Assembly: GCA_031280635.1 (NCBI GenBank)
Contig: JAITGK010000034.1
Location: 1 to 36,850 of the forward strand
Direction: 5' to 3'
DNA from: Synergistaceae bacterium
GTDB taxonomy: Bacteria > Synergistota > Synergistia > Synergistales > Aminobacteriaceae
DNA length: 36,850 bases
Shown here: in pieces, positions 1,935 to 29,876 of the stretch
How the letters are laid out: every line of letters starts with the position of its first letter
Position numbering within the stretch: the first letter of the stretch is position 1
Notes under the pieces: model-generated
Told to the model about the DNA's origin: nothing
Database searches by the model: none
Seen by the model: only the letters and a program-made list of their open reading frames with translations
Program-made: the position numbers and the translations under genes

Positions 1935-2027
1935 ACAGCGGATTGCGTAATCATGCGCAGAAATAAGAGACCAAAAACCTGATATAAACGGCAAAAACTC
2001 TGCGCGGAAAAGAGCCAACGGCTCTAA
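1935..2027 (-). repeat. dispersed ~90-bp repeat, full copy (minus orientation)
   Basis: Read on the minus strand this matches the copies at 16911, 18441 and 22719 nearly end to end: a hairpin AGAGCC-GTT-GGCTCT followed by TTTT, then a GC-AGAGTTTTTGCCG block, TTTTTGGTCTCTTA, and a tail ATTACGCAATCCGCT. It fills most of the gap between the GLUG gene and the IclR gene. On the plus strand the AGAGCC/GGCTCT hairpin (2011-2025) lies just ahead of the IclR ribosome binding site. Confidence 0.85.
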
Positions 2028-2043
2028 TTGAGGAGATCGACAT

Positions 2044-2841
2044 TTGAAAGAGTCCAAGAGTCCACTGCCTGCCCAGGTCAACCAGTCCTCGGACAAGTTG
2101 CTGTTACTGCTAGAGATCATGACTCAGCAGTCGGAGTCGTTGCGTTTGCAGGATATAGCGCGTCTGTGCGGGATGAACGTCAGCACGGCCCTGCGCTTTA
2201 TAAAGGCTCTGCGGAACCGTCAGTACGTGGAACAGGACGCCGACACGGGGCGGTACTACCTTACATTCAAGTTGTGCGCTCTGGCGCAGAACGTCAGCAC
2301 GTTTTTCGATATGCGCAGCCTTGTCCGACCCTTTCTCCGTAGCGTCGCCCAAACATTTTCCGAATCCTGCAACCTGGCGATAGAGCGCGACATGACGGTT
2401 GTCTACATAGAAGTGGAGAAGGGTCCCGCCAAAACCCTGATGAGCACGCAAAGGATCGGGAACGTGGCTCCGTTGCACTGCACTGGCGTGGGCAAGCTCT
2501 TTTTGACGGAGTACTCCCCGGCGGCTTTGGAGCAGATGGCTGCCGTCAAGGGGCTTGCGCGCTACACGGATCGCACGATCACCGACCTAACCGCGCTGAA
2601 GGCGGAGCTGGATAACGTAAAACGGGCCGGATACGCCTTCGACAACGAGGAGTGTGAGGATGGCGCGCGTTGCATCGCGGCTCCCTTGCGTGACTACACA
2701 GGCAGGATAAAGGCGGGCGTCAGTGTCAGCGGCCCGGTGGTGAGGATGACGGACAAACACGTCTTTCTCCATCTGCCGCACCTTCTGGACGCGGCGGAAC
2801 GTATCTCCTCTCGGATGGGCGGAGCAACGCTTAAAAAATAA
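2044..2841 (+). CDS. IclR-family transcriptional regulator
   Basis: 265 aa with a TTG start preceded by GAGGAG. The N-terminal part (about 14-80) is a winged helix-turn-helix: LQDIARLCGMNVSTALRFIKAL, then the wing with YVEQDADTGRYYLTFKL. The remainder is the IclR effector-binding domain, with SCNLAIERDMTVVYIEVEKG, the LHCTGVGKLFL motif and the late GYAFDNEECEDGARCIAAPL motif, all typical of the family. The effector cannot be told. The iron alcohol dehydrogenase starts 17 nt downstream and is the likely co-transcribed partner and possible target. IclR proteins often control catabolism of organic acids, sugars and aromatics. The family call is firm; the target is inferred. Confidence 0.9.
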   Translation: MKESKSPLPAQVNQSSDKLLLLLEIMTQQSESLRLQDIARLCGMNVSTALRFIKALRNRQYVEQDADTGRYYLTFKLCALAQNVSTFFDMRSLVRPFLRSVAQTFSESCNLAIERDMTVVYIEVEKGPAKTLMSTQRIGNVAPLHCTGVGKLFLTEYSPAALEQMAAVKGLARYTDRTITDLTALKAELDNVKRAGYAFDNEECEDGARCIAAPLRDYTGRIKAGVSVSGPVVRMTDKHVFLHLPHLLDAAERISSRMGGATLKK

Positions 2842-2858
2842 AGTTTGGAGGTTTTGAA

Positions 2859-4169
2859 ATGCGGGATTCAAAAGAACGCGCGGTGGCGCTCTTGAAGCAG
2901 TTTAAGGGAAACAGTTACACCTTTGGCCTCAATGTTTTGGACCAGGTGGGAGAGATCGCTAAAAGCCAGGGGAAGGACGGGAATGCCCCATTCGTGACCG
3001 TGATCGGTGGGGCCAGGAGTTCCAAGTCCATCGCCGATAGGGTCATCATCTCGCTGAAAAAGGCGGGCGCGCGGATCGTTCCCGACCGGTGCGTGGAGGG
3101 GGCCAGGCCGAACGCCCCCCGTGAGGACGTCTACCGTCTTGAGTCGTACCTTTTGCATTTCAAGCCCGACTGCGTGGTGTCCATCGGTGGGGGAAGCGGC
3201 ATTGACGCCGTGAAGGCCGCCGCTGCCTTAGCGACCCTAGGAACGGAGTCCCCGGAGCTCGACGCCTGGTTTGGTACTGGCGCGGTCACCGAGGGCCTGA
3301 AGCGTTCGGGGAAAAAGTTACTCCCCCACATCGCGATAGAGACCTCTGCCAGCAGCGGGGCGCACCTCACGAAGTACTCGAACGTCACAGACCCCATAGC
3401 CGGACAGAAAAAGCTGATCGTGGACGACGCCATAGTCCCATTCCACTCTATCTTTGACTACTCCGTAACGGTGAACATGCCCGCCGCCTTGACCGTCGAT
3501 GGGGCGTTGGACGCTGTCGCGCACGCCGTAGAGGTGTTTTACGGAGTGAGCGACGACAAGTATGAACTTTGTAAGGAAATCACGGAAACAGTGCTGGACC
3601 TCGTTCTACCTTACACGAAACGAGCCGTGGACAAACCGGACGACCTAGAGGCCCGCGAGGCCCTGGGGCTTGCCACCGACTTGGGCGGCTACGCCATTAT
3701 GATCGGCGGAACCAACGGGGCGCACTTGACCAGCTTTTCCCTGGTGGACGTCACCACTCACGGCCGCGCCTGCGGTATCATGAACCCCTATTACACTGTT
3801 CTTTTCGCGCCGTCCATTGAGAAACGTTTGAAGGCGATAGGCGCCTGCTACGCCGCCGTCGGCCACATGAAAAAAACGGGGTGGGAATCGCTTGCGGGGC
3901 GTGATCTGGCCGTCGCGGCCGCGGAAGGGATGATGAGCTTCGCCCGCTCCGTGGGCGCGGAGACTAAGCTCTCCGAGTTCCCGAACTTCACGCCCAAGCA
4001 CGTAACGCGCGCCCTGACGGCGGCGAAAGACCCGCAGCTTAAAATGAAGCTTCAGAACATGCCCATGCCCATGTCCAGCGAACAGGTTGACGAGTACATG
4101 GGCTCGGTGCTGGATGCCGCCGTGACAGGAGACTTCTCCAAGATAAAAACCCTGCCAGTGGCGCGATAA
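2859..4169 (+). CDS. iron-containing alcohol dehydrogenase
   Basis: 436 aa, group III (Fe-ADH) fold. The nucleotide-binding motif is [16 protein letters not shown] (about 106-120). The expected metal ligands are visible: D218 and H222 in [13 protein letters not shown]289 in [11 protein letters not shown] and H301 in [13 protein letters not shown]. The family oxidises or reduces alcohols, aldehydes or hydroxy acids with NAD(P)H. The C terminus is longer than in 380-aa relatives, as in the maleylacetate reductase and hydroxyacid-oxoacid branches. It has a good Shine-Dalgarno (TTGGAGG) and follows the IclR gene by 17 nt, so the two are probably one operon. The substrate is not known. No clear terminator follows it. 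Confidence 0.87.
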
Positions 4170-4239
4170 TCGCCCTCGCCGGCCGTTTTCGGCGCCGCAA
4201 AGCTAATCTTCGGAGATCCATGTCGCTATCTCAATCTTA

Positions 4240-4248
4240 TGCTATACT
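4240..4248 (+). promoter_or_regulatory. extended -10 promoter of the rpsB operon
   Basis: TG-C-TATACT at 4240-4248 fits the extended -10 pattern; no good -35 box is visible. It would give a leader of about 105 nt before the rpsB start. Long rpsB leaders are the site of S2 autoregulation in other bacteria, but I could not recognise the known structure here. Confidence 0.5.
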
Positions 4249-4360
4249 AGCGGCGTGTCAACACACACACAGGGGCACGGCGGGCATAAAGGTGTTTCGC
4301 GCGGGAACGCGGGATTTTGTCCGTCGCTGTGGAGGAATAACCTATCAGGAGGTTGAAAAA

Positions 4361-5155
4361 TTGGCAGTCGTAAGCATGAAGCAGTTGTTGGAGTGTGGGG
4401 TACATTTCGGACACCAAACAAGGCGCTGGAACCCCAAAATGAAGCCCTACATTTTTACGGAGCGCAACGGGGTCTACATCATTGACCTGCAAAAGACCGT
4501 CAGAGGATTGGACCGAGCCTACGATTTTGTCCGCGAGGTCTCCTCGGGAGGGGGTACCGTTCTTTTTGTGGGAACCAAGCGCCAGGCTCAGGACACTATA
4601 CGGGATGAAGCCGTGCGTTGCGGTCAGCATTACATCAACCAGCGGTGGCTGGGTGGTCTCATGACCAATTTTCCCACCATTCGCAAGCGCGTGCTACGGA
4701 TGCTCGAGCTTCGCAAGTATGACGAGAGCAACACATGGGAGACGTTTTCCAAGAAGGAGCTGGCCTCTTTGCGCAAGGAGCAGGCCAAGCTAGAAAAGTA
4801 TCTGGGTGGCATCGCTCAAATGCACGATATCCCAGACGCGCTTTTCCTTATTGATCCCCGGCGCGAGGAAAACGCCATTGCCGAGGCCCGCAAGTTAGGC
4901 ATTCCCGTGATCTCTATTGTGGACACCAACTGCGACCCCGAGGTCATCGACTACCCCATTCCTGGCAACGACGACGCCATCCGGGCCATCAAATTGATCG
5001 CCGGACTAATGGCGAACGCGGTCATTGAGGGCAGGCAGGGCGAGGACTCCTCCGTTCCGGACCTCGAAGGAGAAAAGGTCGGCGAGGTGGACATCATCGC
5101 TGTGAAAGAACGCTTGCACGAGACCTACGACGCCGAAACCGTAAGTGTCGAGTGA
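4361..5155 (+). CDS. rpsB: 30S ribosomal protein S2
   Basis: 264 aa from the TTG at 4361, which sits 8 nt after a perfect AGGAGG (4347-4352). The frame is open further upstream, but those residues do not look like S2. The family hallmark begins at once: [23 protein letters not shown]. Other S2 motifs are [36 protein letters not shown], and [19 protein letters not shown] followed by [13 protein letters not shown]. The protein sits on the small subunit at the head-body junction. It is followed by tsf 43 nt later, the conserved bacterial order. Length is normal. Confidence 0.97.
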
Positions 5156-5198
5156 CATCTAAGGAAACGAAAAGGAAACAAAGAGGGGAGACGCTTTA

Positions 5199-5795
5199 AT
5201 GCCTGAAATTTCCGCGAACGCTGTGAAAGAACTCCGGGACCGGACGGGTTCCGGTATGATGGATTGTAAAACGGCGCTGACCGAGACGGGTGGAAACGTC
5301 GAAAAAGCGATAGACTATTTGCGGGAGAAGGGCCTGGCCAAGGCCGCCAAAAAATCCGCAAGGACGGCCTCCGACGGGCGGGTTTTTCATTATGTCCACA
5401 CCAACTGCAAAGTGGGGGCCTTGCTGGAACTCAACAGTGAGACGGACTTCGTCGCCAAGACCGACGAGTTCAACGCTTTGGGGCACGAGCTGGCGATGCA
5501 CATCACGGCCGCAAACCCCCTCTACCTTAGGCCGGAGGACGTGCCCGAGGCGGACCTGGAGCGGGAAAAGGCCATCTACCATCAGCAGCTCCTTGACGAG
5601 GGCAGGCCTGTGGACAAACTTGATAGGATTATTGAGGGAAAGGTCAAGAAGTTTTACGAAACCACCTGCCTTTTGGAGCAGCCCTACATCCGGGACGGAA
5701 ACAGAAAGATTAAAGATCTGCTTGTCGATCTCATTGCCAAGCTGGGAGAGAATATTGTCATCCGCAGATTTGCCAGATTTATGATCGGGGAATAG
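5199..5795 (+). CDS. tsf: elongation factor Ts (short form)
   Basis: 198 aa. The N-terminal UBA-like domain shows the family signature: VKELRDRTGSGMMDCKTALTETGGNVEKAIDYLREKGL. The core contains GALLELNSETDFVAKTDEF, the EF-Tu-contacting TDFVA motif, followed by a single dimerisation-type domain ending in RFARFMIGE. EF-Ts exchanges GDP for GTP on EF-Tu. E. coli EF-Ts is about 280 aa; the shorter type with one reduced core subdomain occurs in Thermotoga, Synergistota and Firmicutes relatives. A terminator hairpin follows 21 nt after the stop. Confidence 0.96.
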   Translation: MPEISANAVKELRDRTGSGMMDCKTALTETGGNVEKAIDYLREKGLAKAAKKSARTASDGRVFHYVHTNCKVGALLELNSETDFVAKTDEFNALGHELAMHITAANPLYLRPEDVPEADLEREKAIYHQQLLDEGRPVDKLDRIIEGKVKKFYETTCLLEQPYIRDGNRKIKDLLVDLIAKLGENIVIRRFARFMIGE

Positions 5796-8204: not shown

Positions 8205-8429
8205 TTGCCCCTTGCCTCCTATATTGTCGAAGGGCCGCTTCACCGCCCCTCCCGTGTAAAGGCCATCAAAGTAATTCAAGGGGAAGTACAGGATGTTTAT
8301 CCTGCCTTGTCAAAGAGTCAGCGCGGTATTCTAAAAGCATTAGGAATCCGCGTTCCAGGTCATGGCGGTTTGTATAATCATATGCGGAAAGAAGAGGTCA
8401 AAAACCGGATATATAGCAATTTGATTTAA
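8205..8429 (+). pseudogene. possible gene fragment, 74-codon open frame
   Basis: Up to 74 residues with a TTG start that lies inside a hairpin and lacks a Shine-Dalgarno, so a real start is doubtful. The stretch VKAIKVIQGEVQDVYPALSKSQRGILKALGI looks protein-like and may be the C-terminal tail of a transposase or another basic protein, but I cannot name a family. Its end runs into a palindrome. I read it as a remnant after deletion or insertion events. Confidence 0.3.
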
Positions 8430-8451
8430 TATATTATATATTAAATCAAAT
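8419..8451. repeat. perfect 33-nt AT-rich palindrome
   Basis: Sixteen-bp perfect arms around a single central T (8435), composed almost only of A and T (left arm starts ATTTGATTTAATATA). It includes the stop codon of the fragment at 8205-8429. It shares 6 nt (8446-8451) with the next palindrome, so the two hairpins compete. Confidence 0.9.
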
Positions 8452-8490
8452 ATCTAGATTAGAGCCAATGGCTCTAATCTAGATATTTGA
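8446..8490. repeat. perfect 45-nt palindrome with GAGCC-N3-GGCTC core
   Basis: Twenty-one-bp perfect arms (8446-8466 and 8470-8490) around the loop AAT. The core AGAGCC-AAT-GGCTCT is the same hairpin that heads the dispersed ~90-bp repeats. The last codons and stop of the ybjQ-family gene (8474-8476) lie in the right arm. It may act as a terminator for both convergent genes, although no long T-run follows on either strand. Confidence 0.9.
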
Positions 8491-8815
8491 CCGCCGTCCC
8501 GTAGGCGATCAGCTCGGCGGCGCCCTGGGTTATGGACGTGGTCGACAGCCTCAAGCCATACACGGCGTCCGCTCCCACGGCGCGGGCCTGCTCTTCCACG
8601 CGCTTCAAGACGATGCCCACGCCCTCGCTCATCATAGTGCTGTACGCGGGAAGTTCCCCCCCGATCGTCCAGTTGCGGACGTTGGCTATCACGTCTTTCA
8701 CTAGGGACTTACTCAGGCAGGCTACGCCATACACCGTGCCCAAAAGGCGAACGTTGCGCCCCGCCCCCACATCAATGGTCAGGATCGCGACGTCCGATCT
8801 TCCTTCCGATCGCAT
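8474..8815 (-). CDS. YbjQ/UPF0145 family protein
   Basis: 113 aa. Motifs of the UPF0145 family are visible: the strand VRLLGTVYGVACLSKSLVKDV, the YSTMMSEGVGIVLKRVEEQARAVGADAVYGLRL block (usually Y..ml...R..A...m...A...GAnAV.gvr), and a C-terminal small-residue strand AAELIAYGTAVKYL. These small proteins are thought to form pentamers; their function is unknown, with metal binding suggested by old annotations. ATG follows GGAGGGTGAAAA. The start overlaps the end of the upstream 726-aa gene by 37 nt, implying translational coupling. The 3' end lies in a 45-nt palindrome. Confidence 0.85.
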   Translation of the reverse strand: MRSEGRSDVAILTIDVGAGRNVRLLGTVYGVACLSKSLVKDVIANVRNWTIGGELPAYSTMMSEGVGIVLKRVEEQARAVGADAVYGLRLSTTSITQGAAELIAYGTAVKYLD

Positions 8816-11007: not shown

Positions 11008-11021
11008 CTTTTCACCGCGTA

Positions 11022-11073
11022 TGGGGCTCCGCCCCAAACCCCACTTAGGGGTCGGGAGCCCCTAAGAACCCCG
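11022..11073 (-). repeat. GC-rich double-hairpin repeat, copy A
   Basis: On the minus strand: GGGGTTCTTAGGGG, a 23-nt hairpin with perfect CTTAGGGG/CCCCTAAG arms (11044-11066), then TGGGGC-GGA-GCCCCA (11022-11036). Nearly the same order of blocks occurs in the opposite orientation at 12839-12893. It begins 7 nt after the pckA stop. Confidence 0.75.
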
Positions 11074-11079
11074 TTTATA

Positions 11080-12738: not shown

Positions 12739-12838
12739 TTCGTTTCGTCCTCCAATACAATGATATAGCGGCTTACATACGTTATTAACGCTAAAACAGC
12801 GCGTTGGCGCGCCGACCCAACCTACATAGACCCCTCAA

Positions 12839-12893
12839 ATGGGGTTCTTAGGGAGCTTCGGCCCCTAAGCGGGGTGTGGGGCAGGGCCCCGCT
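12839..12893 (+). repeat. GC-rich double-hairpin repeat, copy B
   Basis: Plus-strand order GGGGTTCTTAGGG, a hairpin with CTTAGGG/CCCTAAG arms, then GGGGC-AGG-GCCCC. It is the same unit as at 11022-11073 with a few substitutions and the opposite orientation, and lies about 15 nt after the fhs stop. It may act as a terminator or mRNA 3' end stabiliser for fhs. Confidence 0.75.
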
Positions 12894-12908
12894 TTCTTTT
12901 TAGACTTT

Positions 12909-15108: not shown

Positions 15109-15150
15109 CACTTTGCCCCCAGCTGTTGAGTTTTTTATGAACAAAACTTT

Positions 15151-15729
15151 TTACGCGATTGCGCAATCCGCTATAAAATTTGACTGTTTCCGCCAAACGC
15201 GAGAGGGAAAACTCAGAGCTCGCGCGATCAGGGGCTTGACCCTCAGTGCGACGGCAGGGAATCTCAGGGCTTCCAGTCCGCCGAGAGCCTGGGAAATTTC
15301 CTCGGAGTCCAGGGTTTCTGACTCAAGCGTGAAAACCCACCGCGCGCTGGGCGCGGCAATCATTAGGATCAGGCAGGCCCCCGGCAGGTCCCCCAGGGGG
15401 GGGGTGTCGATGTGGCTCAGGGAGAACGAGGCGGACACGCGCGTTCCCCGGCCTGGCTCGGAGAGAAAATGGAATGAGCCGCCGCACTGTTCCGCGCTCT
15501 GTTTGAGAAAGGAAAGCCCCAGTCCGACGCGGCGCGATGTCCGGCTGGTATTGCGAAAGGGGTTTGTCGCGACGGCCTCGCTCAGGTCGACGCCCCCGCC
15601 GTCGTCGATGACCTCCAACTTCAGGAAGCCTAGGGGCTTTTCCTGGATGGAGGCCTGGACGCGACGCGCCCCGGCGGCGACGCTGTTCATCGCGATGTCC
15701 AGGAGATGCGCCGACAGGTCTTCGAGCAT
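15151..15729 (-). CDS. small HATPase (histidine kinase-like ATP-binding) protein
   Basis: 192 aa consisting almost only of a GHKL ATPase domain. The N box reads LLDIAMNSVAAGA (about 9-21), the G1 box LEVIDDGGGVD, and the G2 region GLGLSFLKQSAEQCGG then GRGTRVSASF. There is no dimerisation histidine, receiver or membrane part, so it is not a complete sensor kinase. Similar stand-alone proteins occur near [FeFe]-hydrogenase genes in anaerobes; no such gene is here. The last codons (IADCAIA and stop) are encoded by a fragment of the dispersed repeat, so the original C terminus may have been altered. It is 6 nt downstream of the TPR gene, clearly one operon. Confidence 0.85.
   Translation of the reverse strand: MLEDLSAHLLDIAMNSVAAGARRVQASIQEKPLGFLKLEVIDDGGGVDLSEAVATNPFRNTSRTSRRVGLGLSFLKQSAEQCGGSFHFLSEPGRGTRVSASFSLSHIDTPPLGDLPGACLILMIAAPSARWVFTLESETLDSEEISQALGGLEALRFPAVALRVKPLIARALSFPSRVWRKQSNFIADCAIA
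15152..15176 (+). repeat. tail fragment of the dispersed ~90-bp repeat
   Basis: The segment GCGATTGCGCAATCCGCTATA equals the 3' tail of the full repeats (GTGATTGCGCAACCCGCTATA at 16911-17003) with few changes. It contains the perfect palindrome GATTGCGCAATC. It overlaps the 3' end of the HATPase gene. Confidence 0.65.
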
Positions 15730-16653: not shown

Positions 16654-16910
16654 CTCCACTTGATGATAAGCGGTTCGTGACGAGTTAGGGAAACGCTGAT
16701 TTATCAGCGGCCCGCGCGAAGTCCGCGAAGCTGGTTTGGAGTGGGAGCGGGTGGAGGTAAATAGCCATTGCTTTTATCTTGTTCAGGTATAAATGGCTCA
16801 ACGCTGTCGCGTGAGTATTCTCGTTCGTCTCTATACCTGTAAATATACAGAATAAAGGTGTATGACGTCAATCCCCTTTATGAAGAAAATCACTGACATT
16901 ATGCGACTTT

Positions 16911-17003
16911 AAAGCCGTTGGCTCTTTTATGCGCAAAGTTTTTGCCGTTCATATCCGGTTTTTGGTCTCTTATTTCCGCGCGTGATTGCGCAACCCGCTA
17001 TAT
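16911..17003 (+). repeat. dispersed ~90-bp repeat, full copy (plus orientation)
   Basis: Head AAAGCCGTTGGCTCTTTT, middle GCGCAAAGTTTTTGCCG, then GGTTTTTGGTCTCTTATTTCC and tail TGATTGCGCAACCCGCTATA. It matches the copies at 1935-2027 (reverse), 18441-18532 and 22719-22813 in order and spacing. It lies between two minus-strand genes, opposite to their direction. Confidence 0.85.
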
Positions 17004-17028
17004 TACGCGCTCTGCTATAAAACATGCC

Positions 17029-17817
17029 CTAAGAGCGCTTTCGCGCGATAATTTGCATTTCTACGCACCACGATGGGACATGGGCGCCCAGCCAACAATT
17101 CCATTGCCACCACAAGCGGCAGTGCTCCAGCGGCTTTAGCACCCCGCCGGAGATAACGCGGAAACCGCGACACACTATGACGTCTACATTGGGGCACGCC
17201 TTTTTTAGCTCTTTGATAAAATCGCGTTTGGACCACGCCTGGATGTGCCCTCTAACTTTCTGAACCCTGAAAAGGCGATCCATTACGGGAACGACATGCC
17301 TTCGAATCAAGTGCAGTCCAGCCGGAAATATCGGGACTCCCACGACAAGAAGCCCGTCTGGACGCAGAACTCTTGACAGCTCAGACATGGCCAGACGGTA
17401 GTTTTTTAGATGTTCCAAGACCTGTTCACATACGACTACATCAAAAGAATTCGCCGCTAGGTCTTTCATACCGCAATTCAGGTCGATACAGTGATGCTTC
17501 CAGCCGGCGTGCTTGTAAACGAATTCGATGCCGTTTGGGTAAATATCGACGGCTTCGTACCGGATATACTCGCTTCCCGGATGAACCTCCGCATATCGCC
17601 TCAAAACGCCGTCGTTAGTCCCCACATCCAACAAATCCAGTGGCCTTCCGAGATTCTGATGATGTTCCCAAGCCCATCTCGCCAGGTCGCGGCCCAATTC
17701 GTAATACCTGGCCTGACGCAACCGGTAAGGCCTGGCATGGCCTCCCTCTATTCCAAAAGCATGATCCGTTTTCAAGTCCACTATGTCTTTACTTGTAATT
17801 TTTGTAATGGAAATCAT
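17029..17817 (-). CDS. class I SAM-dependent methyltransferase
   Basis: 262 aa from ATG 17817. The open frame extends to 17907, but those first 30 codons are translated from a dispersed repeat, so I chose the internal ATG. The SAM motif is LDLLDVGTNDGVLRRYA (motif I), followed by acidic YEAVDIYPNG (motif II), FDVVVCEQVLEHLKNYRLAMSELSRVLRPDGLLVVGVP (Methyltransf_11 core) and a C-terminal part rich in W and C. Cytosolic, no membrane segment. The Methyltransf_11 type acts on many small molecules and glycan or lipid precursors; the substrate cannot be told. It is an isolated minus-strand gene flanked by repeats on both sides, which suggests an accessory or acquired gene. Confidence 0.85.
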   Translation of the reverse strand: MISITKITSKDIVDLKTDHAFGIEGGHARPYRLRQARYYELGRDLARWAWEHHQNLGRPLDLLDVGTNDGVLRRYAEVHPGSEYIRYEAVDIYPNGIEFVYKHAGWKHHCIDLNCGMKDLAANSFDVVVCEQVLEHLKNYRLAMSELSRVLRPDGLLVVGVPIFPAGLHLIRRHVVPVMDRLFRVQKVRGHIQAWSKRDFIKELKKACPNVDVIVCRGFRVISGGVLKPLEHCRLWWQWNCWLGAHVPSWCVEMQIIARKRS

Positions 17818-17860
17818 TGGTTGTCCCACCCGTTGTATTGATTGTCGTTCCCGAACATTC

Positions 17861-17905
17861 TTAGAGCCGTTGGCTTTTTTCCATGCAAAGTTTTTGCCGT
17901 TCATC
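17861..17905 (+). repeat. dispersed repeat, truncated head copy
   Basis: TTAGAGCCGTTGGCTTTTTT followed by GCAAAGTTTTTGCCGTTCAT matches the first half of the ~90-bp repeat. The match stops abruptly near 17905. It lies upstream of the methyltransferase gene and supplies the last codons of the remnant ORF at 17861-18070. Confidence 0.8.
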
Positions 17906-18070
17906 AATGAGGCTCATGCGTTTGCCCCACTCCCACACGCATTGGGTCGTCCCGGACACGCGGACGCACACAACCAACGCGCCATCCTTTCCGGGACGCG
18001 GCACAACCACCGACACACGAATTTTGTAAGGGAATCCGTTTTTGCGAAAACGCGCCTTTTTTTGCGGCAC
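17861..18070 (-). pseudogene. gene remnant ending in a dispersed repeat
   Basis: The frame reads protein-like text (QKKARFRKNGFPYKIRVSVVV, then GALVVCVRVSGTTQCVWEWGKRMSL) and remains open upstream to a stop at about 18103-18105. The last roughly 14 codons come from the repeat copy at 17861-17905. Only a GTG start at 18070 with a poor Shine-Dalgarno is available. I recognise no family. The best reading is a decayed gene whose 3' end was replaced by the repeat. Confidence 0.35.
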
Positions 18071-18118: not shown

Positions 18119-18280
18119 TTAGAAGAACACAGTTACGCTTGCCGCTTGCCGCTTGCCGCTTGCCGCTTGCCGCTTGCCGCTTGCCGCTTGCCGCTTGCCG
18201 CTTGCCGCTTGCCGCTTGCCGCTTGCCGCTTGCCTAAAATTGTAGCATATATAATCAAAAAAGTCAAGCGTTAAAATCAT
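18119..18280 (-). CDS. small ORF containing a heptanucleotide tandem repeat
   Basis: 53 codons from ATG 18280. The start is preceded by AAGGAGGTG (18288-18296) with a 7-nt spacer and by an extended -10 promoter at 18339-18347, so translation signals are unusually good for so short a frame. The protein begins MILTLDFFDYICYNF. About four and a half copies of the heptapeptide RQAASGK follow, encoded by three heptamers each, then VTVFF and TAA. With 14 heptamers the frame stops just after the tract. By my reading, one more copy would extend it to about 125 codons (stop at 17904), and two more would stop it at once. It may be a phase-variable leader, a regulatory ORF, or a decayed gene start. Confidence 0.4.
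   Translation of the reverse strand: MILTLDFFDYICYNFRQAASGKRQAASGKRQAASGKRQAASGKRQAASVTVFF
18136..18234. repeat. heptanucleotide tandem repeat, 14 copies
   Basis: Fourteen perfect copies of CGCTTGC (plus one extra C), with no interruption. Perfect identity suggests recent expansion by slippage or active maintenance. It sits in a small minus-strand ORF and in the probable 5' leader of the methyltransferase gene. Confidence 0.97.
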
Positions 18281-18440: not shown

Positions 18441-18532
18441 CTAGCTGGTCCTTTTATTCGCAAAGTTTTTGCCGTTTATATCAGGTTTTTGGCCTTGTAC
18501 TTTCCACGCGTGATTATGCAACCCGCTATAAT
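18441..18532 (+). repeat. dispersed ~90-bp repeat, full copy with degraded head
   Basis: The head hairpin has decayed (CTAGCTGGTCC), but TTCGCAAAGTTTTTGCCGTTTATATCAGGTTTTTGG and TGATTATGCAACCCGCTATA match the other copies. Its tail CTATA joined to AAT makes a perfect TATAAT (18527-18532), 42 nt before the DUF2339 gene, so this copy may supply its promoter. Confidence 0.8.
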
Positions 18533-18573: not shown

Positions 18574-21336
18574 ATGGAGGTACTTCTGATAATCGTCGCG
18601 CTATGTTGGTTTTTCACCCCATTTTTCATCATGAGCAAAATAGGTGATTTGTCGGAACGACTCGAACGGTTCAAGGAGACCCTTGAGGAAAAGCTCACCG
18701 CCTCTGAACGGCGACTCCAGCAGACCTTGGAGGAAATACTCCGCGGAGCTCCTGGGGAGCCCCAAACGCGGGAGGCGGCTGTGGCCTCGCCGTTTGTTCC
18801 CGCCATGCCGCCTTCCGCCTCAGCCCCTTCGACGCCCGAAATTTTAGCCACCCCCATTCCTGAGATTTCTGAGAAAGTTTTTGAACCCGAGGTTTCCGCT
18901 CCTGCGATTCACGAAAGCGAGGTCCCGCTTGAGCCGGAAGTCCCCGGCGTCCTGGAGTTGGCGCTACGGCGGTTTCTATCGTGGATGCTGGCGGAGGGCA
19001 ACGTTTGGGTATGCGCGGGCGCGCTTTTGTTCTTCGTGGGGTTTGGACTCCTGTTTCGCTACGCGCTTCAGCTCGACCTCCTGACCCTGGAGATGCGCTT
19101 GGCGGCGGCGGCGCTCACGGGCATCGCTATGGTGTGGTTTGGCTTCCACATACGAGAGCGGCGACGCGTCTACGCCCTGATCCTGCAAGGCGGGGGCATG
19201 GGCGTGCTCTACCTGGTGGTACTGGGCGCGGCAAGGCTCAACGCGTCGGGGGGGCTGCCCATCCTGTCTCCGGCCTTCTCCGCCGCCGCCATGTTGGTTC
19301 TCTCCGTCTTTACCGTCCTGCTGGCCTGGCTTCAGGACTATGAGCCCCTCGCTCTCTTCGCCGTCATGGGCGGGTTTGCCGCGCCTATCCTAGTTAGCGT
19401 CAGCAGCCGAAACTACGTGGCGCTCTTTTCCATCTATACCCTGTTGAACTTCGAGGTTTTAGCGCTGACCTTCAAGCGCAACTGGCGGCTTCTGAACCGC
19501 GCGGCTTTCATCATCACCATCGCGGTGGGGACGGCCTGGGGATTCCGCGATTGGAGACCTGAGCTCTTCGCCTCCGTGGAGCCCTTTTTGGTGATATTCC
19601 TCGTGACCTACACCTTGGTGGCCGCCGCACGAGGGGATGGAACGCGCTCGCCCGACATTTTCCTGGCCTTGGGAGCGCCTTCCGGATTTTTTCTTTTGCA
19701 GATGAAGGCAGCGGAACACCTCCGGTATGGCATGGCTCTCACTTGCTTGGGTCTAGGTCTTTGGCACCTGCTCCTGGGCGCGTGGCCTCGTCGTCCCAGT
19801 CGCGCACTATCGCGCCTTCATATGGCGCTGAGTATTCTGTTCTCAAATCTGGTCATCCCCTATACCTTCGACAACACCATATCCTCCGCGGCTTGGGCCG
19901 CCGAGGGCGCGTTCCTGGTGGGGGCCGCGAGTCGCTGGGGCAGCCACAAAGCCCTTCTGGCGGGACTTGCCCTCCACGCTGGGGCGCTGTACCTCTACGG
20001 CCCCGAGATATCGCGGCTGGACTTGAGCGCGGCGGCGCGGCTGAGTCCGCTTTTCATCAGCGGCGTGTTGTTCGCGGCGTCTTGCTGGTTGAGCGGTTTT
20101 TGGGTCTCGCGCTTCCGTTTGTCCTATAAACCGTCCCTTAAAGGCTGGGAAGGGACGCTGAAGGAGAACGTGGGCAAATGGGGGAGCTTCCTGTCCTGGT
20201 CGTTCACAATTCTAGGTTCTCTGTGGTGGTGGTATACGATTTATGACCAGATCTCGCGCCTGGACGTGAACTGGCTTTTTCCAGCCGCCTGCCTCACGGC
20301 CCTGGCCGGAAGCTGGTTGTCCGTGAAGCTGGACTGGAAGGCCGCCCGGTTCCTGCTGCTCTGCCCTATCGCGTCGGTTCTCGCCTGGACGCCAATAGGC
20401 TGGAGTCAGTTGCTAGGCGTGACAATGCCGTTTTTCAGGAACAGCTTCTTGCAGACGATTGGGGAAAACGCCTGGGTGAACTCCGTGGCCTACGTGGTCT
20501 CCATCGGGGGTTCCCTCTGGCTTCTGCGCGGAACGGCCACGTTTTTTTCCCCCGTCACCTTGTTCATCGCCACGTGGAGCGGGTTGCCCTTGATCGAGGG
20601 AGCGGCGCGGCAGATGGGGCTCCGTTTCGGCCATGAATGGGGTCCGCTTTTTTCCCTCCTGCCCTTTTTCGGACTGCTTTTACTCCTGCGGCGTTTTTCT
20701 GAGAAAGAGGAGGTTTTTAGAAGACATCGTACGCCTTTAACCTGCGCCACGGGCATGGAACTGCTTTTCCTAACTTGGAGTTTTGTCAGAAGTTTTTCAA
20801 GCGCTGGAAGCGCCGTTCAGGAACTCTTCATACCCCTTCTGAATCCCCTGGAACTTTGGCAGGCGCTGATTTTGTTTTCTCTTGCCGTGTGGCGCCAAAT
20901 TTTCGCCGTAAAGGGCCAACCGGCGTGGCCGAAATGGACGCGACAAGGGTCGGCCCTGCTGCTTTTCGTGTGGCTGAACCAGGTCACGGCGCGGGGCGTG
21001 TGGTGGCATTTGCTTGATAGGAGGCATTACGATATGTGGGAGGTAGCGTTTACCTCGGAGTACCAGGCCGTCATCGCCATTGTATGGGGCGTCCTAGGGT
21101 TGTGGGCGGTTCTCTGGGGGCAGAAATTCCGCTCTCGTACTCTGTGGTTTTCCGGTTCGGGCCTTCTGTCCATTGACGTGGCGAAACTGTTGCTGGTGGA
21201 TTTGCAAGGGGCGGCAACGCTCACCCGCATTCTGGCGTTTCTCGTGTTGGGCGGACTGTTCCTCTTGATCGGCTGGGTCGCGCCCCTGCCGCCCAAGGAA
21301 GACGCGCAACAAAATAAAGGGGAGACGCCGTCATGA
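18574..21336 (+). CDS. DUF2339 polytopic membrane protein
   Basis: 920 aa from ATG 18574 (behind AAGGGTGG). ATG 18550 would add eight residues and cannot be excluded. A first membrane helix (LLIIVALCWFFTPFFI) leads into a coiled-coil segment (about 20-60, SERLERFKETLEEKL) and a Pro/Glu-rich linker. From about residue 135 on there are some 20 hydrophobic helices, typical of the DUF2339 family (about 600-1000 aa). The segments GNVWVCAGALLFFVGFGLLFRYA and YALILQGGGMGVLYLVVLGA are characteristic. Function in the family is unknown; an envelope role is commonly assumed. The stop overlaps the start of the DUF3999 gene (ATGA), a partnership seen in other bacteria. Confidence 0.87.
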   Translation: MEVLLIIVALCWFFTPFFIMSKIGDLSERLERFKETLEEKLTASERRLQQTLEEILRGAPGEPQTREAAVASPFVPAMPPSASAPSTPEILATPIPEISEKVFEPEVSAPAIHESEVPLEPEVPGVLELALRRFLSWMLAEGNVWVCAGALLFFVGFGLLFRYALQLDLLTLEMRLAAAALTGIAMVWFGFHIRERRRVYALILQGGGMGVLYLVVLGAARLNASGGLPILSPAFSAAAMLVLSVFTVLLAWLQDYEPLALFAVMGGFAAPILVSVSSRNYVALFSIYTLLNFEVLALTFKRNWRLLNRAAFIITIAVGTAWGFRDWRPELFASVEPFLVIFLVTYTLVAAARGDGTRSPDIFLALGAPSGFFLLQMKAAEHLRYGMALTCLGLGLWHLLLGAWPRRPSRALSRLHMALSILFSNLVIPYTFDNTISSAAWAAEGAFLVGAASRWGSHKALLAGLALHAGALYLYGPEISRLDLSAAARLSPLFISGVLFAASCWLSGFWVSRFRLSYKPSLKGWEGTLKENVGKWGSFLSWSFTILGSLWWWYTIYDQISRLDVNWLFPAACLTALAGSWLSVKLDWKAARFLLLCPIASVLAWTPIGWSQLLGVTMPFFRNSFLQTIGENAWVNSVAYVVSIGGSLWLLRGTATFFSPVTLFIATWSGLPLIEGAARQMGLRFGHEWGPLFSLLPFFGLLLLLRRFSEKEEVFRRHRTPLTCATGMELLFLTWSFVRSFSSAGSAVQELFIPLLNPLELWQALILFSLAVWRQIFAVKGQPAWPKWTRQGSALLLFVWLNQVTARGVWWHLLDRRHYDMWEVAFTSEYQAVIAIVWGVLGLWAVLWGQKFRSRTLWFSGSGLLSIDVAKLLLVDLQGAATLTRILAFLVLGGLFLLIGWVAPLPPKEDAQQNKGETPS

Positions 21337-22718
21337 GGAAACGGCTGTGGAAAAACGCGGAGCTCGCCTTGTGCGCGTTTCTGCTGCTGTCCGCCGCGGC
21401 GGAGGGAGCGCGGACGCCGGCGCGGCAGGAAAAACCAACCCCCGTGACCTTAAAGGACTTTATTCACGCCGTGGAGCTGAAAACGGCGATGGATGGCGCG
21501 ATTTACCGCTTCGTCCTGCCAAAGTCCGTCTACGAGGGTCTGGTACAATCCCAGCGGGTCGATCTCGCCGTTTTCAACGCCAGTGGGGAGGTTGTGCCCT
21601 TCGCCGTAACAGAACCGCCGGCGCGCGGCACGGTGGAGCGAGCCGAACACGCTGTCCCGTTCTACGAGCTTCCCGCTCGGTTGGAGAGTCCTGGGGCCAG
21701 CCCTGTGGGACCCATTGACATTTACGTCAGAACCGGCGCGGACGGACAGGTCGTCTCCGTGACGGGCGGCGGCGGAGGGGGCGAGGCGAGGCTCTATCTG
21801 CTGGACTTTTCCTCAGTGCGGTTGGGTGAAAACGCCCTTGGTCACACGCTGACCCTCTCCTTGCCAGACGATGTGACGGGGCTGTCCGCCCAAATGTCCT
21901 TCTTCGAGAGTTCGAACCTGCGAGATTGGTCCTCGTTTTTGACAGACGCTCCCCTGATTCAGCTTCGCAACGAGGATTCACGCCTGACTCGCGACAGCGT
22001 TGAGCTGCCCCGCGCCCCCAGACGCTATTTGTTGTTGAGGATCAAGGGAGCCCATTTCAGTTTAAAGGGCGTTCGCTACTCCGCCACGTTACGAAGCGCC
22101 TCCGTCTACGAAGAAGAGGGCGTGGCCAGACCTGGCGTCGCCCTGGGATACGACCTGCTGGGGGCTTTCCCTGTGTTGAAGGTCAACTTTGTTCTGCGAG
22201 AACCGGGCTTTTACAGAGCGCGTTATCTCTCCCGACCCCAGGAGGACGGTCCGTGGCAGACGCGGGGCGAGCTGCGACTCATGATGATACGCAACCCAGA
22301 TGGAAGCGTGACCTCCAACCTCCCCGTTCCCGTAGACCCACGCCTGGAGCACCGCCACTGGCGACTGGAGTTCGATGGCGCCTTCTCCGGGGCGCCTCCG
22401 GAGATGCGCTACTTCTGGCGTCCCAGAGAGGTCTTCTTCTTGGCACAGGGCAGGGCGCCTTACATCCTGGCCTTCGGCAGCTCTCGGAAAGGGCTTGCCC
22501 TCCAGGACGCGTCGTTTCTGAGCGGCGTTCAGGCAACGGAGGCGGAGATCGGCCCGCCTATCGATCCTGGCAAGACTCCAGACCTGGCCCCAGGAGGGGA
22601 AGAGGCCGGACGCGGCGAAACCGAGTGGCAACGCTATTTGGTATGGGCGCTCCTGGCGTTCAGCGGTTCGTTGCTCTCCGCCATAGCCTGGAAGCTGATG
22701 AAGAGCGAGAATCAATGA
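21333..22718 (+). CDS. DUF3999 exported, membrane-anchored protein
   Basis: 461 aa. A signal peptide lies at about 1-25 (WKNAELALCAFLLLSAAAEGA). The following domain has features of DUF3999: YRFVLPKSVYEGLVQSQRVDLAVFNASGEVVPFAV, LYLLDFSSVRLGENALGHTL, a WSSFLTDAPLIQL strand pattern (a galactose-binding-like beta fold is plausible), and RYLLLRIKGAHFSLKGV. A single transmembrane helix closes the protein (LVWALLAFSGSLLSAIAWKLM), so most of it would be outside the cytoplasm. It overlaps the upstream DUF2339 gene by 4 nt, so the two products likely form one envelope complex of unknown role. Confidence 0.85.
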   Translation: MRKRLWKNAELALCAFLLLSAAAEGARTPARQEKPTPVTLKDFIHAVELKTAMDGAIYRFVLPKSVYEGLVQSQRVDLAVFNASGEVVPFAVTEPPARGTVERAEHAVPFYELPARLESPGASPVGPIDIYVRTGADGQVVSVTGGGGGGEARLYLLDFSSVRLGENALGHTLTLSLPDDVTGLSAQMSFFESSNLRDWSSFLTDAPLIQLRNEDSRLTRDSVELPRAPRRYLLLRIKGAHFSLKGVRYSATLRSASVYEEEGVARPGVALGYDLLGAFPVLKVNFVLREPGFYRARYLSRPQEDGPWQTRGELRLMMIRNPDGSVTSNLPVPVDPRLEHRHWRLEFDGAFSGAPPEMRYFWRPREVFFLAQGRAPYILAFGSSRKGLALQDASFLSGVQATEAEIGPPIDPGKTPDLAPGGEEAGRGETEWQRYLVWALLAFSGSLLSAIAWKLMKSENQ

Positions 22719-22813
22719 CTAGGGCCATTGGCTCTTTTCCGCGCAAAGTTTTTGCCGTTTATATCCGGCTTTTGGTCTCTTAATTTCCGCGTATGATTAC
22801 GCAAGCCGCTATA
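22719..22813 (+). repeat. dispersed ~90-bp repeat, full copy (plus orientation)
   Basis: Head GGGCCATTGGCTCTTTT, then CGCGCAAAGTTTTTGCCG, GGCTTTTGGTCTCTTAATTTCCGCG and tail ATGATTACGCAAGCCGCTATA. It starts right after the DUF3999 stop in the same direction, so its head hairpin plus T's can serve as that operon's terminator. Confidence 0.85.
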
Positions 22814-26310: not shown

Positions 26311-27237
26311 GTGAAGAAAGCGTTGGTTTTGGCGTGCGCGTTGTTGTTGGCGGTTTCCGCAACCTCGGCGGCGGAACTCAAGGTGGGGTTTGTAGCGACC
26401 AACTTCGCGGCGGAGGCCCAGGCCCGCGTGGCGAACGCCTTCGAGAAGATCGCCAAGGAAAAGGGGTGGAACGCCCAAATGCTCAACTCGGCGGGTTCCA
26501 TCGACACCCAATCTACCCAGCTCGAAAACCTGCTCCAGATGAAAGTGAACGCCGTGGTGCTGGCTATGGCCCACCCGCTGGAGGTGCGCCCCGCCCTGGA
26601 GAAGCTCTTCGAGGCCAAAATCCCGGTGATCACCATTGACTCCGGCTACGTGGACGGCGTGGTGGTGGACATCACGTCGGACAACTTCGGCGTGGGGGCC
26701 AAAATGTCCACCTACTTGGTGGACGCGCTTGGAGGGAACGGCAACATCGTCCTCATCAAGTTCGAGAAGCACCAGGGCAGCCGCAGGCGGGGCAAGGTTA
26801 TGGACGCCGTCCTGAGCGAGTATCCAGGGATCAAGGTTCTGGCGGAGTACAGCGTGGTGGCCACCAAGAGCTTCATGGACGACACCCGCTCCGCGGTGGA
26901 GACCTACGTCACCCGCTTCGGAGAGCAGATCGACGGGGTGTGGTGCGCCTTTGACCAGCTCGCCTACGCGGCGGGGGACGTGCTTTCCGAGCGGCTCAAG
27001 GACAAAAAGCCCATTATCGTGGCCGCGGACGGGAACAAGGAGACGTTCCGACGTATCGGCGACGGACTGATGAGCGCCACGGTGGCCCAGCCCTTCGAGG
27101 AAATGGCGGCAGTGGCCGCGTCCCTGGTGGAGAAGATCGCGGTGGAGGGGAAAATGCCGGAACAGGCCACTCAGGGCAAGAAGCTCTTCTACGTGGACAC
27201 ACCCCTTTACGACGCCGCCAACCTTCCAAAGGAGTAA
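26311..27237 (+). CDS. periplasmic sugar-binding protein (RbsB/PBP1 type)
   Basis: 308 aa from the GTG at 26311, about 10 nt after GGGAG; GTG 26302 is too close to it. Signal peptide KKALVLACALLLAVSATSA with cleavage before AEL. The mature part has the periplasmic binding fold: LKVGFVATNFAAEAQARVANAFEKIAKEKGWN, then LENLLQMKVNAVVLAMAHP, IPVITIDSGY, GVGAKMSTYLVDAL, RRGKVMDAVLSEYPGIKVL, and IDGVWCAFDQLAYAAGDVL near the end. It captures the solute outside the membrane for the RbsAC-type transporter. Ligand specificity cannot be judged by eye. Confidence 0.93.
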   Translation: MKKALVLACALLLAVSATSAAELKVGFVATNFAAEAQARVANAFEKIAKEKGWNAQMLNSAGSIDTQSTQLENLLQMKVNAVVLAMAHPLEVRPALEKLFEAKIPVITIDSGYVDGVVVDITSDNFGVGAKMSTYLVDALGGNGNIVLIKFEKHQGSRRRGKVMDAVLSEYPGIKVLAEYSVVATKSFMDDTRSAVETYVTRFGEQIDGVWCAFDQLAYAAGDVLSERLKDKKPIIVAADGNKETFRRIGDGLMSATVAQPFEEMAAVAASLVEKIAVEGKMPEQATQGKKLFYVDTPLYDAANLPKE

Positions 27238-27247
27238 CAGGGGAAAA

Positions 27248-28687
27248 ATGCCGTTTTACCTGGGGGTGGACCTGGGGAGTTCGTTCATCAAAGCGACCTT
27301 GTTGGATGGAGAAGGTCGGGTAGTGACCCGCGCTAGGCGGGAGTCCTCCGTATTTAGCCCCAGGGAGGGCTTTTTCGAGGTGGACGCCGAGGAGGTTTGG
27401 TGGAAGGGTTTTCTTTCCATCTGCCGAAAAATGTGCTCGGAGGCGCCGGCTGTCTCCATTCGCGCCCTGTGCGTCAGCTCGGTGTGCGGTTCTTTTGTTC
27501 CAGTGGACGAGGCCTTTCGTCCCGTTCATAACGCCATTCTCTACGGTATCGATCGGCGCAGCGAGGTGTTGGCCGCGACCCTCAACGCTCATTATGGAGA
27601 GGAGTTTCTCCAGCGCCGCCTGGGGAACGTCTTTTCTACCCATTCCGTGCTGCCAAAGATCCTCTGGCTGAAGGAGAACCGCCCGGAAGAGTACCGTCGG
27701 GCGGCTTTTTTCGTTTCGAGCTTCAACTTCATCTCCGCGCGCCTCACGGGCGTTCCCTCGTGGGACGCGCCCACCGCCTACGGGGCGCTGATGCTGGACG
27801 GGGAGACAGAGGACGTCCCGAAATGGTTCCTAGAAGACCAGGGGATCGCCGCCGAAAAAATCCCCTCCGTGGGTCCCGCTGTGGCTCCGCTGGGAGTTGT
27901 CACGCGCGGGGCTGCTTTAGAGACGGGTCTGGCCGCCGGGACGGTGGTACTGCGAGGCGCCTGTGATGTGAACGCCGAGGCGATGGCCGTCAATGCCGTG
28001 GTTCCGGGGTCGGCTGTGGCCGTTTTCGGCTCCACGGTCTCCCTTCTGCTGAACACCAAAGCGCGCTGCGGCCTAAAGGGGTTCATGACGGGGCGCTCCC
28101 TGTTCCCAGGCGTATGGCGTATTGGCGCGGCTACAGCCTCCGGTGGGCGAACGGTGGAGTGGGGGCGCAAACTTGGGGCCACTGCCGTTCCCGCGTCGCC
28201 CACGGGCATTTTTTTCATCCCTTACCTGGACGGGGCCCGGACGCCCTTCGACGATCCCTCTGCCAAGGGGGCGTTTCTAGGACTGACCAGCGCCCATACC
28301 CCGCTGGATATGGCCGCCGCCGTGCTGGAGTCCCTGGGTTACGAGCTGGCGATGATTATTTCCAAAATGGAGGAGGCCGCGCCCTTTCCCTTCCTGATGG
28401 AGGCCTCAGGGGGCTTGACCAACCTGCCTGGCCTGATGGAGCTCGTCGCCGACGTCACAGGAAAATCCCTTCGCCCACGCCCCGACGTGGACGCCTCTTA
28501 TGGGGACGCGCTCATTGCCATGACGGCGGACGTGTCCCCCGACGCCCTGCCCTCCCTCGACAAGTCGCTTCACGTCGTCTATCCTTCTGAACGCGCGGCG
28601 GCCTACGCGGAACTCCGCGCCCGCTTCACCCAATGGGCGTTGCCGCTTACGGCGTCGTCGAAATTTCTACCCAACTCAAACGCTTAA
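27248..28687 (+). CDS. FGGY-family carbohydrate kinase
   Basis: 479 aa. The N-terminal ATPase-fold phosphate loop is LGVDLGSSFIKATLLDGEGRVV (about 5-26), followed by the EVDAEEVWWKG motif common to xylulokinases and relatives. Other family blocks are LYGIDRRSEV, SVLPKILWLKENRPEEY, SARLTGVPSWDAPTAYG, and the adenosine-binding region with the catalytic Asp in GACDVNAEAMAVNAVVPGSAVAVFGST, then LMEASGGLTNLPGLMELVADVTGK. It phosphorylates a sugar, ketose or polyol with ATP in the cytosol. It starts 10 nt after the binding-protein gene, so it probably acts on what the transporter imports. The substrate is unknown. Confidence 0.93.
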   Translation: MPFYLGVDLGSSFIKATLLDGEGRVVTRARRESSVFSPREGFFEVDAEEVWWKGFLSICRKMCSEAPAVSIRALCVSSVCGSFVPVDEAFRPVHNAILYGIDRRSEVLAATLNAHYGEEFLQRRLGNVFSTHSVLPKILWLKENRPEEYRRAAFFVSSFNFISARLTGVPSWDAPTAYGALMLDGETEDVPKWFLEDQGIAAEKIPSVGPAVAPLGVVTRGAALETGLAAGTVVLRGACDVNAEAMAVNAVVPGSAVAVFGSTVSLLLNTKARCGLKGFMTGRSLFPGVWRIGAATASGGRTVEWGRKLGATAVPASPTGIFFIPYLDGARTPFDDPSAKGAFLGLTSAHTPLDMAAAVLESLGYELAMIISKMEEAAPFPFLMEASGGLTNLPGLMELVADVTGKSLRPRPDVDASYGDALIAMTADVSPDALPSLDKSLHVVYPSERAAAYAELRARFTQWALPLTASSKFLPNSNA

Positions 28688-28855
28688 AAACTTTTCAAGT
28701 ATTTAAAACAACTTTGCGCGCATTCGAAAAATCTGCTTAAACCATTCCAACAGCCACATTACATCCATGGGCAGATTTACGTAAATAAAAATTTTATTCA
28801 GTAATTGCAATGTCTTACGTGTAAAACGTGTTGCGTCTGGACTACAATAAGTATC

Positions 28856-28884
28856 TTGACATATTGATTCGTATCCTTTATTCT
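28856..28884 (+). promoter_or_regulatory. sigma-70 promoter of the cold-shock gene
   Basis: Perfect TTGACA (28856-28861), 17-nt spacer and TATTCT (28879-28884). The leader would be about 50 nt, much shorter than the cspA leader of E. coli. The 250-bp gap before the gene shows nothing else. Confidence 0.75.
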
Positions 28885-28940
28885 GTATATACGCCGTCTT
28901 TGTGATCGGTAATTTTATTTGTTTTAGGAGGCTTTTCTTG

Positions 28941-29141
28941 ATGGCTCAAGGCACCGTGAAGTGGTTCAACGAAAGCAAGGGGTATGGGTTTATCACCGCT
29001 GACGAGGGAAAAGACGTGTTCGTGCACTACAGCGCGATAGTAGGTGATGGATTCAAGACTCTTGCTGAAGGGCAGAAGGTGTCGTTCGAAATCGTGAACG
29101 GCGAGAAGGGACCACAGGCAGCGAGCGTCTCCAGGCTTTAG
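28941..29141 (+). CDS. cold-shock-domain protein
   Basis: 66 aa, normal for CspA-type proteins. ATG follows AGGAGG with a 9-nt spacer; upstream codons lie in the leader. The OB-fold motifs are intact: [15 protein letters not shown] contains RNP1 (KGYGFI), VFVHYSAI is RNP2, then [15 protein letters not shown]. It binds single-stranded RNA and DNA as an RNA chaperone. Monocistronic, with its own promoter and a terminator. Confidence 0.96.
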
Positions 29142-29164
29142 TCCACGCAGACCACAAAAAAAGA

Positions 29165-29200
29165 AGAGGTCTCCCGCGAGGGAGGCCTCCTTACGTTTTA
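29165..29200 (+). terminator. rho-independent terminator after the cold-shock gene
   Basis: GAGGTCTCCC and GGGAGGCCTC pair over 10 positions (one G-T pair) around GCGA, followed by the T-rich CTTACGTTTT. Confidence 0.75.
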
Positions 29201-29209
29201 GATGCCATC

Positions 29210-29395
29210 ATGCGAAAAGAGTTCAAGTACATTATGGCGGCTTCGATGTTGTTTTGTCTTGCCATCATCGCCACGGCGGGCCTGCGCTTACCGTGGAGCG
29301 AGGAGGGAGCCGTCTACGCGATCTACGGGGGCTCGGTGGGCTTTTACGCCGCGGTAGCGATGGGCATGTTCATCGTGTGGAAACTGAAAAAGTAG
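29210..29395 (+). CDS. small two-helix membrane protein
   Basis: 61 aa with two hydrophobic segments: YIMAASMLFCLAIIATAGL (about 8-26) and GGSVGFYAAVAMGMFIVW (about 40-58), separated by a short loop LPWSEEGAVYAIY and closing with KLKK. The start lacks a strong Shine-Dalgarno and another ATG lies at 29234. No family recognised. It is convergent with the Cys-rich gene, 12 nt away. Confidence 0.55.
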   Translation: MRKEFKYIMAASMLFCLAIIATAGLRLPWSEEGAVYAIYGGSVGFYAAVAMGMFIVWKLKK

Positions 29396-29407
29396 CGTCG
29401 CCGGGCG

Positions 29408-29665
29408 TCAGGGCTGGCATCCCCCACCGCAGCCCGCGCAGGCGCCCCCGCAACTTCCGTTTTTCCAGGCGTTGACCACGGGGACGAACACGTCCATGAT
29501 CTCCGGAATCTTGTCCGCGCCCTTGTCCTCGTTGGTAATGCCGAGAAGCTCCATCACGGTGTCCGGCGTCTCGGCGCCGTCCATAATACCCTGCACCACG
29601 TCGCGCAAAGTCGTTCCCTTTTCCTCACAAACCACCGTCGCAGCCGCCGCTCTAGTCCAATCCAT
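29408..29665 (-). CDS. small protein with a Gly/Cys-rich C terminus
   Basis: 85 aa from ATG 29665, 8 nt after AGGAGG. Two parts are visible: an N-terminal helical region (MDWTRAAAATVVCEEKGTTLRDVVQGIMDG) and a C-terminal tail SCGGACAGCGGGCQP with four closely spaced cysteines, suited to metal or Fe-S binding. A fifth Cys is near position 13. No family recognised. The good Shine-Dalgarno and promoter-like boxes at 29713-29742 support expression. A promiscuous selenium, metal-trafficking or Fe-S role is only a guess. Confidence 0.7.
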   Translation of the reverse strand: MDWTRAAAATVVCEEKGTTLRDVVQGIMDGAETPDTVMELLGITNEDKGADKIPEIMDVFVPVVNAWKNGSCGGACAGCGGGCQP

Positions 29666-29712
29666 CAAAAACGCCTCCTTATTTGGGGAAAAACAAACTC
29701 CCCCTCTCTGAA

Positions 29713-29742
29713 ATTCTACATTCTTTACTCCCGGTTTGTCTA
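29713..29742 (-). promoter_or_regulatory. promoter of the Cys-rich gene
   Basis: On the minus strand TAGACA (29742-29737), 18-nt spacer, TAGAAT (29718-29713); each box matches consensus in five of six positions. It gives a leader of about 40 nt. Confidence 0.5.
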
Positions 29743-29816
29743 GAGTATATACTGAATTATATAATTACTAACTCCCAAATAGCGTGTAAAAAGCTCATAA
29801 CCACCGCTATTTATAA

Positions 29817-29876
29817 AAGAGCCAATAGAGCGGGTCGCATAATCATTCGCGAAAGATAAGAGACCAAAAAAACTGA
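29817..29876 (-). repeat. dispersed repeat, rearranged or partial copy
   Basis: On the minus strand GTTTTTTTGGTCTCTTATCTTTCGCG is followed by ATGATTATGCGACCCGCT, matching the right half of the ~90-bp repeat. A GGCTCT head-like block follows instead of preceding it, so this copy looks permuted or truncated. Confidence 0.65.

Follow-up and report, generated by a model that had tools for sequence, protein, structure and literature searches.

What is the repeat of about 90 bp that is dispersed on both strands of the window (the whole 36,850-nucleotide stretch analysed here, contig C18 of a Synergistaceae MAG), and is it a small non-autonomous element, a mobile terminator or a regulatory RNA element, the three possibilities named in the original prediction? 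The MAG spans 2.84 Mb on 187 contigs (98.6% complete, 8% contamination). An iterated profile, run over 1.86 Mb (66% of the genome), resolved the repeat as R1, a high-copy 94-bp family with sharp ends. All four near full-length window copies matched at E ≤ 2.3e-18 and within a few bases of their predicted positions (Table 1). Genome-wide copies with conserved boundaries proved numerous: the profile list for the 1.86 Mb holds 301 matches (149 on the plus and 152 on the minus strand), with 246 at E < 1e-4 and ~190 near full-length, and 50 Markov-shuffled windows searched with the same profile gave no match at E < 1. A first-look scan of the whole 2.84-Mb MAG yielded ~358 candidates. The genome holds some 300-400 copies, which account for about 1% of it, and among copies exactly 94 bp long the median identity to the consensus is 89%. 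This consensus is non-coding, about 94 bp long and laid out as TA-GAGCCGTTGGCTCTTTTCCGCGCAAAGTTTTTGCCGTTTATATCCGGTTTTTGGTCTCTTATTTCCGCGCRTGATTACGCAACCCGCTA-TA. Aligned copies begin with T-TA-G(A/T)GC (TA in ~95%) and end with GCTA-TA-A (~93-96%), and conservation drops just beyond TTA...TAA.

Table 1 R1 and R2 features in the window, with the profile match or sequence that identifies each.
Feature	Position	Strand	Basis
R1 MITE, full-length	1934..2026	-	profile positions 1-93 of 94, E 4.8e-25
R1 right half of disrupted copy	8362..8415	-	profile positions 39-92, E 1.5e-8
R1 head hairpin, same disrupted copy as 8362..8415	8461..8475	-	sequence
R2 copy	11020-11076	-	ends AGGAARCGCTGAT
R2 copy	12837-12904	+	ends AGGAARCGCTGAT
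R1/R3-family deletion derivative (weak)	15129..15176	+	profile positions 12-94 with internal deletion, E 0.16; ATGAACAAAACTTTTTACGCGATTGCGCAATCCGCTATAA
R1 MITE, full-length	16910..17002	+	profile positions 1-93, E 1.3e-26
R1 left half, truncated	17862..17911	+	profile positions 1-48, E 5.9e-8
R1 MITE, near full-length, head degraded	18444..18531	+	profile positions 8-94, E 2.3e-18
R1 MITE, full-length	22720..22813	+	profile positions 1-93, E 2.9e-24
R1 right half, truncated	29827..29870	-	profile positions 50-92, E 3.1e-4

The finer description of the window copies needed revision. The head AGAGCC-N3-GGCTCT, which the original prediction had as common to the four near full-length copies, is exact in one of them (1934-2026) and in the head at 8461-8475; it reads AAAGCC in the copy at 16910 and AGGGCC in that at 22720, and is lost at 18444. 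Partial copies placed at 17861 and 29817 were recovered as truncated halves, and the one placed at 15152 matched weakly; its sequence (ATGAACAAAACTTTT...GCGCAATCCGCTATAA) suggests an origin by deletion from a sister subfamily. The head hairpin thought to stand alone at 8461-8475 actually belongs to a disrupted copy with its right half at 8362-8415.

Insertion sites, and with them a second MITE family, R2, were found by joining the flanks of each R1 copy and then searching the genome. R2 is palindromic and TA-flanked (TTAAGGAARCGCTGATTAAATGGGGTTCTTAGGGG...CCCCAAAGTGTTTAATCAGCGTTTCCTTAA), with 100 matches at E < 1e-4 in the 1.86 Mb. Empty and filled versions were recovered for three kinds of site, two in R2 and one in the coding sequence of an IS630-family element, IS630-B. 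The left site in R2 reads GCTGAT-TA-AATGGGG when empty and GCTGAT-TA-GAGCC..CGCGA-TA-AATGGGG when filled (L094:9402), and the right site reads GTGTT-TA-ATCAGCG when empty and GGGTT-TA-GAGCCG..CGCTA-TA-ATCAGCG when filled (L061:9167, L129:16859). The IS630-B site is empty in L172 (GAGGC-TA-AAGGTGG) and filled in L124 (GAGGC-TA-GAGCC..CGCTA-TA-AAGAAGGTGG); the right junction of the filled site is three bases longer. One TA when empty against two when filled means that R1 insertion duplicates a single TA, as do IS630/Tc1-mariner elements on insertion. Orthologous sites were also sought in the sister species G001, where the neighbouring genes lay on different contigs or had no match.

The termini of R1 point to the same family of elements. 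DDE_3 remnants occur at 8 places in the 1.86 Mb, with PF13358 above cut-off for the C-terminus, and a search of the same 1.86 Mb for an intact IS630 transposase gave fragments only. The broken IS630-family (PF13358) genes form two sequence groups, A and B. The right end of IS630-B is TATAGCTTTTTTCATAATTA, the group ending in TATAGCTTTTTTCATAATTATGAGTAATAGCC, and the nine 20-mers of the 1.86 Mb that differ from this end at no more than one position are all either IS630-B ends or R1-family right ends (the latter in L112, L133, L150 and L162). The best match is with the R1b subfamily (left TATAGCGGTTCGCTCTTTT, right TATGATTATGAAAAACGCCATAA), whose right end is within one mismatch of IS630-B over 20 bp; this close match is limited to R1b and concerns the right end. 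The terminal inverted repeats of R1 are short and imperfect (TAGCGGTT / TRGCGTTT in R1b, GAGCCGTTGGC / TAGCGGGTTGC in the majority subfamily, R1a). At L106:9804-9917, a natural chimera joins the R1 left end and middle to the terminal ~60 bp of IS630-B. R1 copies also lie inside IS630-B copies (L124, L085 and L073); the arrangement at L073 suggests that sequence between two of these insertions has been deleted.

R1 is thus very probably an IS630-type MITE, mobilised in trans by an IS630-family transposase and inserted with TA duplication. TA duplication at empty/filled sites, a right end in common with an IS630-family element and high copy number bear out the small non-autonomous element among the three possibilities. 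To judge from the shared terminus, its mover was probably a decayed IS630-family transposon of the same genome. An IS630-family (Tc1/mariner-like, DDE_3) transposase would recognise the short imperfect terminal repeats (TAGCGGTT-like) in trans, mobilise R1 and insert it at TA, which would be duplicated. The mover would be the IS630-B transposase, today known from broken copies, and its activity may have ended or be low. The intergenic location of R1 may reflect the purging of harmful insertions.

Within the same MITE class, another TA-specific transposase, such as the mover of R2 or of IS630-A, could have taken the place of IS630-B, although we consider this unlikely. The R1a right end (CGCAACCCGCTATA) is further from the IS630-B end than that of R1b, and IS630-A likewise ends in TATAGC; however, the IS630-A terminus goes on as AATTTGATTTAATA, unlike R1, whereas R1b agrees with IS630-B for some 20 bp and the chimera exists.

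Genomic location and orientation bear on the terminator. The 205 R1 copies that were placed comprise 145 intergenic copies, 37 at contig or piece edges, and 23 that overlap gene calls; 18 of the 23 reach no further than a gene end and 5 lie inside a call. The calls came from a home-made caller that recovered most obvious window genes and missed 17029-17907. With no gene call beyond the 37 edge copies, R1 is probably behind some contig breaks. A mobile transcription terminator, retained since the head hairpin and T-run end upstream transcription, as proposed for SPRITE, is physically possible: AGAGCC-GTT-GGCTCT forms a 6-bp stem that, read in one direction, runs into TTTT, the window copy at 22720 begins directly past the stop codon of gene 21333-22718, and, of 146 stop codons next to R1, 61 are no more than 30 bp away. 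Yet its orientation relative to genes is unbiased, with 42 copies in the same and 54 in the opposite orientation in gaps between codirectional genes, and 30 with and 31 against the gene next to stop codons; start-adjacent copies within 60 bp were split 31 versus 18, judged not significant. The lack of bias speaks against selection of R1 as a promoter too. Several stem pairs are also broken without compensation in many copies (CA in 32/215 at pair 6-12, TC in 37/215 at pair 3-15), and the terminator reading is improbable.

A structured regulatory RNA, conserved for its fold, is more improbable still. The two small hairpins would suit it, as would one clear covarying swap, C-G to G-C at pair 7-11 of the head hairpin, which defines R1b, but most hairpin variants are uncompensated, on neither strand does R1 fold better than shuffled sequence (z-scores 0.31 and -1.14), and its orientation shows no preference. 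Rfam covariance models gave no match at gathering score over the window and none at E ≤ 1 over 16880-17040. R1 is neither an RNA gene nor a selected terminator. We give almost no credence to an IS200/IS605 (HUH) transposase as the mover of a palindrome-associated element, or to a REP/BIME, despite the sub-terminal hairpin at the left end and the dispersal between genes, because HUH elements insert without target duplication, whereas TA is duplicated in the empty/filled pairs (a refutation, short of R1 itself supplying the second TA wherever it has inserted), and the R1 termini match a DDE_3 element.

R2 copies often carry R1 insertions. R1 adjoins R2 at one recurrent TA (GCTGAT-TA-AATGGGG), with 18 cases in one orientation and 2 in the other, and at least 21 R2 junctions at this sequence are intact. 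TA is symmetric, so something beyond TA must orient the insertion, and the R1 copies within R2 come from different subfamilies, so at least several of the insertion events were independent. For this last reason, we do not favour R1 and R2 having spread together as one composite R1+R2 element. As a tentative suggestion, R2 might be a preferred, oriented landing pad for R1, with the R1 transposase or the R2 hairpins steering insertion beyond TA; if true, the effect would be to divert new insertions from genes as well. The oriented hot spot is the one R1 trait that is possibly more than routine.

The R1 family also includes derived forms. A sister subfamily, R3, has R1 ends and a different middle (ATGAACAAAACTTTTGCGGTAGTTATGAGCTTTTT...; L094:9402, L125:3846, L121:4566 and L128:8899), and 12 R3 cores were counted with one pattern. 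TTGG-CTCTT-TTTCCGCGC is present twice within R1, which raises the idea of a diverged dimer, and short forms of ~47 bp (TAGAGCCGTTGGCTCTTTTCCGCGC-RTGATTACGCAACCCGCTATAA; L144:14944, L105:6369, L150:14770, L171:8887 and L083:11540) join both, as if they had recombined between the two internal TTTCCGCGC repeats. At L020 (G000:C97:21191-21317), two R1 copies stand head to tail, the second beginning at the TA that ends the first.

Across the order, 5 of 183 genomes match R1 at E < 1e-6, the source genome included. In a looser search, the sister species G001 had 4 matches, few and mostly partial. G017, from another genus of the same family, had 18, and its full-length copies are ~69-73% identical; G002 had 5, and G147, which belongs to a different family, had 3. 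The relatives in G017, G002 and G147 are diverged, at ~70-76% identity. Among named records, an exact 25-base piece of R1 was found in just one, the Synergistaceae MAG JAITGX010000073, the two R1 matches of which are the same in sequence as those in the same-genus genome G001. Phages, plasmids and IMG/VR were searched for R1 with no match. We infer that R1 expanded mainly in the lineage of the source genome, from an older family scattered in the order.

As a sequence family R1 is new, but its kind is well known in other bacteria; it belongs to the general class of IS630-type MITEs and is a member of neither RUP nor Correia. Its nearest analogue appears to be RUP of Streptococcus pneumoniae, a non-coding 107-bp element with a TA target, 9-bp ends in common with IS630-Spn1 and >100 intergenic copies, which inserts into IS elements and for which mobilisation by IS630-Spn1 has been proposed (PMC2229807, PMC3049150). 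R1 is similarly ~100 bp, non-coding, high-copy and intergenic, with a TA target, an end in common with a resident IS630 and insertions into IS. It differs from RUP in organism and, as far as the comparison goes, in sequence, and in its broken partner IS, its subfamilies with exchanged ends and its strongly oriented hot spot in another MITE. The Correia element (CREE/NEMIS) of Neisseria is a MITE of ~107/155 bp with 100-250 copies and TA termini (PMC5039591, PMC2229807). Its terminus TATAGTGGATT resembles TATAGCGGGTT of R1, and tatagtggattaac... is comparable to TATAGCGGGTTGCG... of R1, the Correia start being tatagtgga (PMC5039591). However, Correia elements have inverted repeats of 24-26 bp (the 26-bp tatagtggattaacaaaaaccggtacgg or variants) at both ends, whereas those of R1 are short and imperfect; at one end R1 is similar to the 26-bp repeat over its first ~11 bases alone, and the R1 left end is TAGAGCC. 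Correia also has an IHF site and promoters, and the likeness covers ~10 bp of one terminus, from which we claim no descent. As with Nezha of cyanobacteria, a MITE assigned to a resident IS, ISNpu3, from its termini (PMC3049150), R1 is assigned to a resident IS by its terminus. SPRITE of pneumococcus, enriched at gene 3' ends and proposed to be a co-opted terminator (PMC3049150), is like R1 a small dispersed repeat with a terminator-like hairpin, but R1 is unbiased in orientation. R1 extends the range of lineages with RUP/Correia-like IS630 MITEs to Synergistales, and with its decayed partner, many non-autonomous copies and MITE-in-MITE nesting it can serve to illustrate the life cycle of these elements.

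Other features of the window were also noted. We take its ORFs to encode a TctABC-like transporter, an IclR-type regulator, PEPCK and formate-THF ligase, which fits an anaerobic fermenter. Upstream of an R1 copy, the 7-base unit CGCTTGC forms a tandem array (18136-18236). IS630-A, the second group of broken IS630-family genes, ends in TATAGCAATTTGATTTAATAT (L133:12128, L101:5221, L136:3040 and L058:256), and a relative in another genus (L186, G010) is less broken and has a similar right end. In the disrupted R1 copy, the head and the right half flank an A+T-rich palindrome that ends with the IS630-A terminus (CAAATTGCTATA), and locus L074 has a similar arrangement. The surrounding region (8340-8500) is nested and fold-back-like: the gene end and R1 head are repeated inverted (TCAAATATCTAGATTAGAGCC/GGCTCTAATCTAGATATTTGA), followed beyond the inverted repeat by the palindrome, 33 bp long with the IS630-A terminus at its end, and then by the R1 right half. 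The arrangement may have come from a template switch at the hairpin, or may be a mini IS630-A element inside R1.
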